NCBI GenBank assembly: GCA_964019695.1
Contig: OZ026515.1
Span: 42,089,994 to 42,153,993 of the forward strand
Source of the DNA: Loripinus fragilis
Taxonomy: Eukaryota; Mollusca; Bivalvia; Lucinida; Lucinidae
Direction: 5' to 3'
DNA: 64,000 nucleotides
The position numbers and the translations under genes were made by a program. Within the stretch, counting starts at the first letter, position 1. The number at the start of each line of letters is the position of its first letter. The notes beneath the pieces are model-generated. The model did not search any database. It saw only the letters and a program-made list of their open reading frames with translations, and was not told the DNA's origin. Shown here piece by piece: positions 52,901 to 64,000 of this stretch.

Positions 52901-55900
52901 TCTCACTATAGTAGATGACTTAAGAATATGCGACAGTGCTGTGTGTCTTAGTGTTCATACTTACCCAACCCAATTGCGTTATGTCCCTTGATATTGATTA
53001 TAGTCTATTTTAAATAATGGCTGTGAAAGAGTCTTATTGCATATTTCGTAATTTTCATTGTGAATAAAGTAATTAAATATGGTATCTTTGGATTTTATGA
53101 TTAACTGAGATGGAATGCAAGTTGCATTTACTAAAAAAAATATTTTTTCAATCGTTTTTTTATCAATATTTTGAGTTTTTTCAGCCAACATTCGGACCAA
53201 ATGGGATTTGAAGATTGCTCTAGCCCTGATCTGATACCACCAAATCAATATTTACCTTGCAAGCACTGGTTATGATAATCATCAGCTTGTTGGTAATAGG
53301 ACTGTAATTTCTGAGAGATCACCTCTGTACATTGTTCATAGGTCTCCTGTAGGGCCTGAGGTCTAGTCACTGGTCGACTGCCCTTCTGCCTATAGTACAT
53401 CTGAGGAAGAGAACAGCTATATACATTGGGCCCAGAACATGAGATTTTTGGTACATATCGCATTTGTGCAAAAGCCTCCAATAAACGCCCATGCAGACAT
53501 ATCCAGTGGGACTATTAGTCTAAATTTTGATCTGAGTCTTTATCTTTATGCTTTATAGCAGCAAAAGCTCTGGCTAGTCTGCCCATGTGTCTTCATTGAT
53601 CTAAAATGGCATAAGTACCCAAATCTCATAAGCTGGTTCCTTTACTCTTTTGTCTAGCACAACTACAGCGTAAGCATGTTGCAGAATGACACTATATCAA
53701 CCCATTTTAAAGATGCACCCTCCGAATTATCCCCAGGAAGTGACAAGCATCAACATCATCTTTGTCACTTGTCACGTCACCAAATATCAGAACCTTTCTC
53801 TCCCACTTACCTCTGAGGCTGACAAGAGTCCATCTAGAGCCTCTCTCAACACTCTCCTGACTATCCCCAGGAAGTGACTAGCACCAACATCCTCCTCCTC
53901 ACTTGTCACATCACCAAATATCAGACCTTTCTCTCCCACTTACCTCTGAGGCTGACAAGAGTCCATTTAGAGCCTCTCTCAACACTCTCCTGACTATCCC
54001 CAGGAAGTGACTAGCACCAAATATCAGAACCTTTCTCTCAAACTTACCTCTGAGGCTGACAAGAGTCCATCTAGAGCCTCTCTCAACACTCTCCTGACTA
54101 TCCCCAGGAAGTGACTAGCACCAACATCCTCCTCCTCACTTGTCACATCACCAAATATCAGAACCATACTCTCCCACTTACCTCTGAGGCTGACAAGAGT
54201 CCATCTAGAGCCTCTCTCAACACTCTCCTGACTATCCCCAGGAAGTGACTAGCACCAACATCCTCCTCCTCACTTGTCACATCACCAAATATCAGAACCA
54301 TACTCTCCCACTTACCTCTGAGGCTGACAAGAGTCCATCTAGAGCCTCTCTCAACACTCTCCTGACTATCCCCAAGAAGTGACTAGCACCAACATCCTCC
54401 TCCACACTTGTCACATCACCAAATATCAGAACTTTCTCTCCCACTTACCTCTGAGGCTGACAAGAGTCCATCTAGAGCCTCTCTCAACACTCTCCTGACT
54501 ATCCCCAGGAAGTGACTAGCACCAAATATCAGAACCTTTCTCTCAAACTTACCTCTGAGGCTGACAAGAGACCATCTAGAGCCTCTCTCAACACTCTCCT
54601 GACTATCCCCAGGAAGTGACTAGCACCAAATATCAGAACCTTTCTCTCAAACTTACCTCTGAGGCTGACAAGAGTCCATCTAGAGCCTCTCTCAACACTC
54701 TCCTGACTATCCCCAGGAAGTGACTAGCACCAAATATCAGAACCTTTCTCTCAAACTTACCTCTGAGGCTGACAAGAGTCCATCTAGAGCCTCTCTCAAC
54801 ACTCTCCTGACTATCCCCAGGAAGTGACTAGCACCAAATATCATAATCTTTCTCTCAAACTTACCTCTGAGGCTGACAAGAGTCCATCTAGAGCCTCTCT
54901 CAACACTCTCCTGACTATCCCCAGGAAGTGACTAGCACCAACATCCTCCTCCTCACTTGTCACGTCACCAAGTATCAGAACCTTTCTCTCAAACTTACCT
55001 CTGAGGCTGACAAGAGTCCATCTAGAGCCTCTCTTAACACTCTCCTGACTATCCCCAGGAAGTGACTAGCACCAAATATCAGAACCTTTCTCTCAAACTT
55101 ACCTCTGAGGCTGACAAGAGTCCATCTAGAGCCTCTCTCAACACTCTCCTGACTATCCCCAGGAAGTGACTAGCACCAAATATCAGAACCTTTCTCTCAA
55201 ACTTACCTCTGAGGCTGACAAGAGTCCATCTAGAGCCTCTCTCAACACTCTCCTGACTATCCCCAGGAAGTGACTAGCACCAAATATCAGAACCTTTCTC
55301 TCAAACTTACCTCTGAGGCTGACAAGAGTCCATCTAGAGCCTCTCTCAACACTCTCCTGACTATCCCCAGGAAGTGACTAGCACCAAATATCAGAACCTT
55401 TCTCTCAAACTTACCTCTGAGGCTGACAAGAGTCCATCTAGAGCCTCTCTCAACACTCTCCTGACTATCCCCAGGAAGTGACTAGCACCAAATATCAGAA
55501 CCTTTCTCTCAAACTTACCTCTGAGGCTGACAAGAGTCCATCTAGAGCCTCTCTCAACACTCTCCTGACTATCCCCAGGAAGTGACTAGCACCAAATATC
55601 AGAACCTTTCTCTCAAACTTACCTCTGAGGCTGACAAGAGTCCATCTAGAGCCTCTCTCAACACTCTCCTGACTATCCCCAGGAAGTGACTAGCACCAAC
55701 ATCCTCCTCCTCACTTGTCACACCACCAAATATCAGAACCTTTCTCTCAAACTTACCTCTGAGGCTGACAAGAGTCCATCTAGAGCCTCTCTCAACACTC
55801 TCCTGACTATCCCCAGGAAGTGACTAGCACCAAATATCAGAACCTTTCTCTCAAACTTACCTCTGAGGCTGACAAGAGTCCATCTAGAGCCTCTCTCAAC

Positions 55901-64000: not shown

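Follow-up and report, generated by a model that had tools for sequence, protein, structure and literature searches.

A CCDC180 exon tail and its splice donor amplified into a probable intronic satellite in the bivalve Loripinus fragilis

In Loripinus fragilis, one intron of the CCDC180 gene is filled over 99.25% of its 42,131 nt by head-to-tail copies of the end of the preceding coding exon, each with the splice donor that follows it. By its structure the array is an intronic satellite, unusual in its source, its size, its hundreds of consensus donors and the presence of a second, neighbouring case. In the reading that we favour with good confidence, this satellite is tolerated by its host gene; it would have been seeded by a tandem duplication of the exon tail and donor, the gene splicing from donor 1, the donor of the original exon. 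Coordinates below are those of the window, a stretch of 64,000 nt from contig OZ026515.1 (assembly GCA_964019695.1), and the analysis was extended over 120 kb beyond its end.

Extent and Composition of the Array

The in-window part of the array lies on the minus strand at 53716–64000, with 90 donors and 89 complete units. Donors were counted with a 16-base motif allowing up to three substitutions, and the same search over the window gave 90 sites on the minus strand versus one on the plus strand, so that a chance origin is out of the question. GAG|GTAAGT is present in 89 of these 90 donors. The tandem amplification of a coding exon together with its donors, as proposed in the first-pass annotation, is thus confirmed; the accompanying estimate of about 90 copies holds for the window but not for the array, which does not stop at 64000 but continues without any N to 95531. 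The complete array (53716–95531) measures 41,816 bp and contains 359 donors, 355 of them GAG|GTAAGT, and 358 units. It is continuous, the spacing between donors never exceeding 136 nt.

Motif search and TRF gave unit lengths in the window (n = 89) of 104 nt (57 units), 134 nt (23), 133 nt (7), 114 nt (1) and 103 nt (1). Over the whole array (n = 358), the lengths are 104 nt (182 units), 134 nt (118), 133 nt (23), 114 nt (14) and 103 nt (11), with ten units of other lengths. The commonest unit, of 104 nt, is the 134-nt unit minus an in-frame segment of 30 nt, missing between two TTGGTG repeats; this deletion is carried by 212 of the 358 units. The copies are near-identical, with a mean of 1.8 substitutions per unit relative to the consensus (n = 358), and 109 of the 358 are distinct. 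When the genome (1.99 Gb, 685 contigs) was searched, all 11 matches of array copies fell inside the array itself (one of two candidates scored). No known RNA family reached its gathering score between 53000 and 58000.

Origin of the Repeat Unit

The parent exon, called here exon n, is found at the upstream end of the array, outside the window (95532–95688, minus strand). It is 157 nt long, has a good acceptor of its own, ttttgttttcttttag, and codes for a 52-residue protein segment; comparison with the orthologous exon, a check suggested with the first annotation, showed this segment to be as in the orthologues. Without its first 5 nt, the 134-nt consensus unit is identical to the last 129 nt of this exon. 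The unit therefore begins 28 nt inside the exon and is made of the exon tail plus the intron bases gtaag, which redefines the 17-nt spacer initially described between coding sequence copies: it is mostly exon, as 12 of its bases belong to the exon and the other 5 are the intronic gtaag.

Such a composition would be expected from a tandem duplication across the 3′ border of the CCDC180 exon, with one breakpoint within the exon and the second 5 bases into the intron behind it. Copies of the exon tail and donor would thus have been placed in the intron, where unequal exchange and conversion could have raised them to about 358 extra copies, or 42 kb. The first copy, which alone combines the acceptor with the full-length exon and its original donor, would have stayed whole, and the duplication would have been tolerated for that reason. 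We infer this order of events from the anatomy of the array.

The downstream edge (53716–53810, minus strand) looks different. After the last donor, at 53810, the array ends in a decayed exon copy truncated at 53716, which matches at 86.3% over 95 nt; 11 of 87 bases are changed, with three silent and six replacing codon changes. An ordinary intron segment of 315 nt (53401–53715) separates it from the next acceptor. The unit beside the downstream exon had been thought to join that exon in phase. Its end is indeed in the right phase, but it is a decayed and truncated copy and not a working exon: a proper acceptor is found at one copy only, at the opposite end of the array and 42 kb from the downstream exon. 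The decayed last copy may mark an older, first duplication, which itself is not readable since the downstream end is truncated inside this copy.

The Host Gene

Several lines of evidence identify the gene. The short peptide of exon n has no Pfam match alone, and once joined to the next exon it matches PF14644 (DUF4456; E = 1.4e-16). Exon n+1 (53256–53400, minus strand, with an acceptor ending in ttcctcag) and two further exons, n+2 (51582–51880) and n+3 (50329–50440), both on the minus strand, match CCDC180 in the PDB (9ijj_F, E = 4.2e-30). A protein search returned 90 homologues, many of them labelled CCDC180, with a best identity of 68%. On these grounds, the initial assignment to a CCDC180 coding exon, supported by 9ijj_F, PF14644 and bivalve orthologues, is retained.

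The gene also looks alive, as first proposed. By tblastn, a Mactra protein was placed at 33 collinear exon places on the minus strand, from 176770 down to 37845, covering 1468 of its 1550 residues; the uncovered residues are the 54 at the C-terminal end and short gaps, of which 597–611 is the longest. A 34th match corresponded to an unmasked array unit and was left out of the 33. The only stop within the Mactra matches is the natural end of the protein. Another homologue, P0001, was covered in like manner over 1467 of 1492 residues, and one of its matches extends into an intron and contains three stops. Genome-wide, 32 of 32 matches of the Mactra protein were at the CCDC180 locus (30 of 430 candidates scored). 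Borders and phases were followed base by base for exons n to n+4, the last of these being an exon match at 47234–47350 (minus strand). The limits of a further exon (39158–39286) and of the last exon with the stop codon (37845–37994), both on the minus strand, are those given by tblastn. By its domain, sequence match and collinear open exons, the gene is a CCDC180 orthologue. In mouse sperm, the CCDC180 protein is described as following the C1 microtubule in the central apparatus (PMC12297659).

At 99% identity, exon n+2 of CCDC180 is matched by P0093, a protein encoded on a 5.4-Mb contig of a different public assembly. Its source is probably the same or a sister species, and it should be useful on whether the array is shared.

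Splicing of an Exon with 359 Donors

Among the 359 donors, the first alone yields an exon that is open and joins exon n+1 in phase. For donors 2 to 359, the frame past donor 1 reaches a stop after seven codons. This stop, together with common unit lengths that are 2 modulo 3, led to the rejection of a coding repeat protein.

The acceptors deserve closer consideration, since the array had been described as free of matching pyrimidine-tract acceptors. The acceptor-like AGs in the units are weak, with a best pyrimidine share of 0.61, rising to 0.67 in some copies, for about 0.56–0.83 in five real acceptors of CCDC180; they are nevertheless present, so the description is right as to weakness but not as to absence. 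On a rough acceptor scale, the best AG of the unit is equalled or exceeded by 21 of 31 real acceptors and outscores the other 10, a real acceptor being taken as the best AG near a tblastn start (one of 32 gave none). On the same scale, 12.8% of 1849 AGs in another intron reach at least the best value of the unit. These scores tell against a strict absence of acceptors, not for the use of the AGs. A recursive splice site motif consists of a pyrimidine tract followed by YAG|GTRAGT. GAG|GTAAGT scores −3.0 on the rough acceptor scale, and an array of recursive splice sites was also rejected.

The sequence anatomy suggests that exon definition leads the cell to use donor 1. The extra copies offer donors without a proper acceptor; the acceptor of exon n would therefore pair with donor 1, 157 nt away, and joining donor 1 to the acceptor at 53401, 42.1 kb downstream, would give the normal mRNA. 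Later donors would have no exon to define, and the array could therefore grow as near-neutral intron filler, the donors of the copies being maintained through copying and not through any need for them. The protein search returned no protein of this species across the junction of exons n and n+1; the best match there has 68% identity, and P0093 covers only one other exon.

Against splicing from donor 1 stands the presence of 358 good donors downstream, which could compete with it. An abundance of U1 can favour intron-proximal donors. The array could thus be a disturbing one, its extra donors competing with donor 1 or trapping splicing inside the array, so that some CCDC180 transcripts would carry a stop and be lost, and the length of the array would tune the output of the gene. 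The near-uniform GAG|GTAAGT donors, the early stop behind any donor past the first and the weak acceptor-like AGs all fit such an effect, but the full collinear CCDC180 coding sequence has been retained, and enough normal mRNA must therefore be made. We regard a disturbing array as quite unlikely.

A third possibility is that the array owes its persistence to hundreds of U1 sites which, in an intron devoid of polyadenylation signals, guard the long transcript from early ending. This mechanism, U1 telescripting, is presented as established in human, mouse and fly (PMC5499120). The counts are suggestive: the sense strand of the array has 356 GTAAGT, no AATAAA and no ATTAAA in 41,816 bp, and a 30,930-bp intron of the same gene has 5 GTAAGT, 34 AATAAA and 21 ATTAAA. 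Amplification of any donor-bearing exon tail would, however, give the same counts without selection, and the donor hexamer is no more conserved than its surroundings, as detailed in the next section; such a protective role appears very improbable.

Variation and History of the Copies

The variation among copies is that of unconstrained DNA. The distinct substitutions comprise 12 silent, 38 replacing and 2 stop changes, for an expectation without constraint of 26.7% silent, 70% replacing and 3.3% stop. The reading frame is open in 270 of 358 units, contains a stop in 31 and is shifted by the unit length in 57. At the donor hexamer, three substitution types are seen over six sites, and over the whole unit 55 are seen over 134 sites (0.41 a site); the donor bases are thus not conserved above their neighbours, as they should be in a selected U1 platform. 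There is no sign of selective keeping of codons or donors, and neither a U1-platform role nor a dosage role finds support in the copy variation. By extension, the copies would be close to neutral in the population.

The spread is uneven: variation is lowest in the 18 exon bases that precede the donor, with three substitution types (0.17 a site), and the 21 bases after the donor show 14. This low variation before the donor could hint at constraint or could result from conversion. The least-varying exon bases before the donor, in window coordinates against the units, are 95550–95567.

Neighbouring units differ from each other about as much as random pairs do (3.97 versus 4.10 differences). On a larger scale, a block of 10.6 kb and 90 units occurs twice in tandem at about 68300–88800, outside the window, with 8,569 bp matching with three mismatches. 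The whole pattern resembles the outcome of prolonged mixing by unequal exchange, to which a single recent large duplication, or else an assembly error, was added. The array may accordingly be real and its length overstated, through repeated joining of the same reads, as the duplicated block might suggest. Against this, no exact repeat of at least 7 kb and no N were found in the array, and 109 of the 358 units are distinct, so that long reads could resolve it; some 270 copies would remain even without the second block. An inflated assembly is thus unlikely. The earlier caution that the array could be partly an assembly effect probably does not apply to the array as a whole; it retains its value for the 8,569-bp internal duplication, which is doubtful. 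A tolerated satellite remains our preferred reading of these copies.

A Second Exon-Tail Array in TTC28 and Other Tail Copies

The same type of array is found a second time in the window, on the plus strand, in an intron of TTC28. Its parent exon (17332–17443) is followed by 12 copies of the last 96 nt of this exon with its donor (17444–19016), which makes 13 donors, the first being the exon's own, spaced by exactly 131 nt. The last donor is at 19016, and ordinary intron follows. TTC28 was identified by protein search only: the 193-residue query is 78% identical to a Mercenaria protein over 97% of its length, and the exon itself is 71–76% identical to three bivalves, the peptides having no Pfam match and no convincing PDB match (E = 0.47 and 1.9). 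As in CCDC180, only the first of the donors is open, and the frame past it stops after four codons. All 13 genome matches of the TTC28 unit were at this array (one of one candidate scored).

A third case, small, decayed and without donor, is provided by the last CCDC180 exon, whose stop-codon end is followed by two decayed tandem copies (37629–37796, minus strand; 80 and 88% identity). Downstream tail copies are thus present in 3 of 52 exons of CCDC180 and TTC28, namely 48 exons plus four further TTC28 exons, a fifth TTC28 place overlapping one already tested. No exonic copy was found upstream of its own exon among the 48 exons, and three downstream against none upstream are too few to claim a direction. 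Flank matches of the exons at 100270, 8295, 21675 and 29579 were dropped as short matches to scattered repeats, with at most one exonic base. Several tandem arrays, none of them exon-derived by eye, were seen in an 80-kb sample from another chromosome, this sample being without gene annotation.

A tentative generalization, to which we give somewhat less than an even chance, is that introns in this bivalve lineage repeatedly grow from their 5′ end by tandem amplification of the preceding exon tail and donor. The 5′ end would be chosen because an exon-spanning duplication there leaves a whole exon first in line, and the two neighbouring genes would have followed this course independently.

Repeats of other kinds are also present in the window. 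Two nearly identical pairs of 103-nt repeats lie about 1.1 kb apart (44041–44246 and 45176–45381), with identical reading frames around both pairs, a local segment duplication. A trinucleotide repeat of GTA type extends over 1.3 kb (40830–42121), with a strong GC skew.

Comparison with Known Systems

The CCDC180 array shares with intronic minisatellite and satellite arrays its head-to-tail homogenised copies, the irregular mix of variants, the internal segment duplication and the location within an intron. It differs from them in that its unit is an exon tail with a 5′ splice site, in the identity of its consensus to the adjoining working exon and in the 99.25% share of the intron.

In tandem exon duplication with alternative exons, a coding exon is repeated inside one gene, which is also what the array looks like. 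In that system, though, each copy has its own acceptor and can be included in frame, whereas here neither the acceptor nor the first 28 exon nt are present in the copies, none can be included in frame, donor 1 alone is open and variation is that of unconstrained DNA.

The Drosophila genes kl-3 and kl-5 code for axonemal dyneins. As with CCDC180, satellite-filled introns occur there in genes needed for the axoneme of sperm or cilium. These introns are described as gigantic (PMC6508621); they reach megabases, compared with 42,131 nt for the CCDC180 intron, and their repeat is a simple satellite instead of the gene's own exon. The introns described in PMC4974935 as gained by tandem duplication across an exon–intron border resemble the CCDC180 case in that splice signals are carried across the exon border. 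In that account the duplication makes a new intron, whereas in CCDC180 an intron that was already there has grown longer and has gained only donors, in their hundreds. Word and phrase searches within one open-licence literature library found no account of exon-tail satellites.

Biological Significance

The CCDC180 gene, in which a single good acceptor is followed by 359 near-identical consensus donors, is a natural experiment on 5′ splice-site choice, and it poses the question whether exon definition, transcription order or U1 abundance decides. Should individuals differ in copy number, this number could be compared with CCDC180 splicing in sperm and ciliated tissue. Exon-tail arrays are also a trap for gene prediction and RNA-seq mapping. 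More generally, they illustrate how an intron can expand out of the exon that precedes it, seen twice in one 64-kb window. If growth from the 5′ end of introns proves true in this lineage, arrays of near-identical donors would provide natural tests of the selection of one 5′ site among hundreds by the spliceosome.
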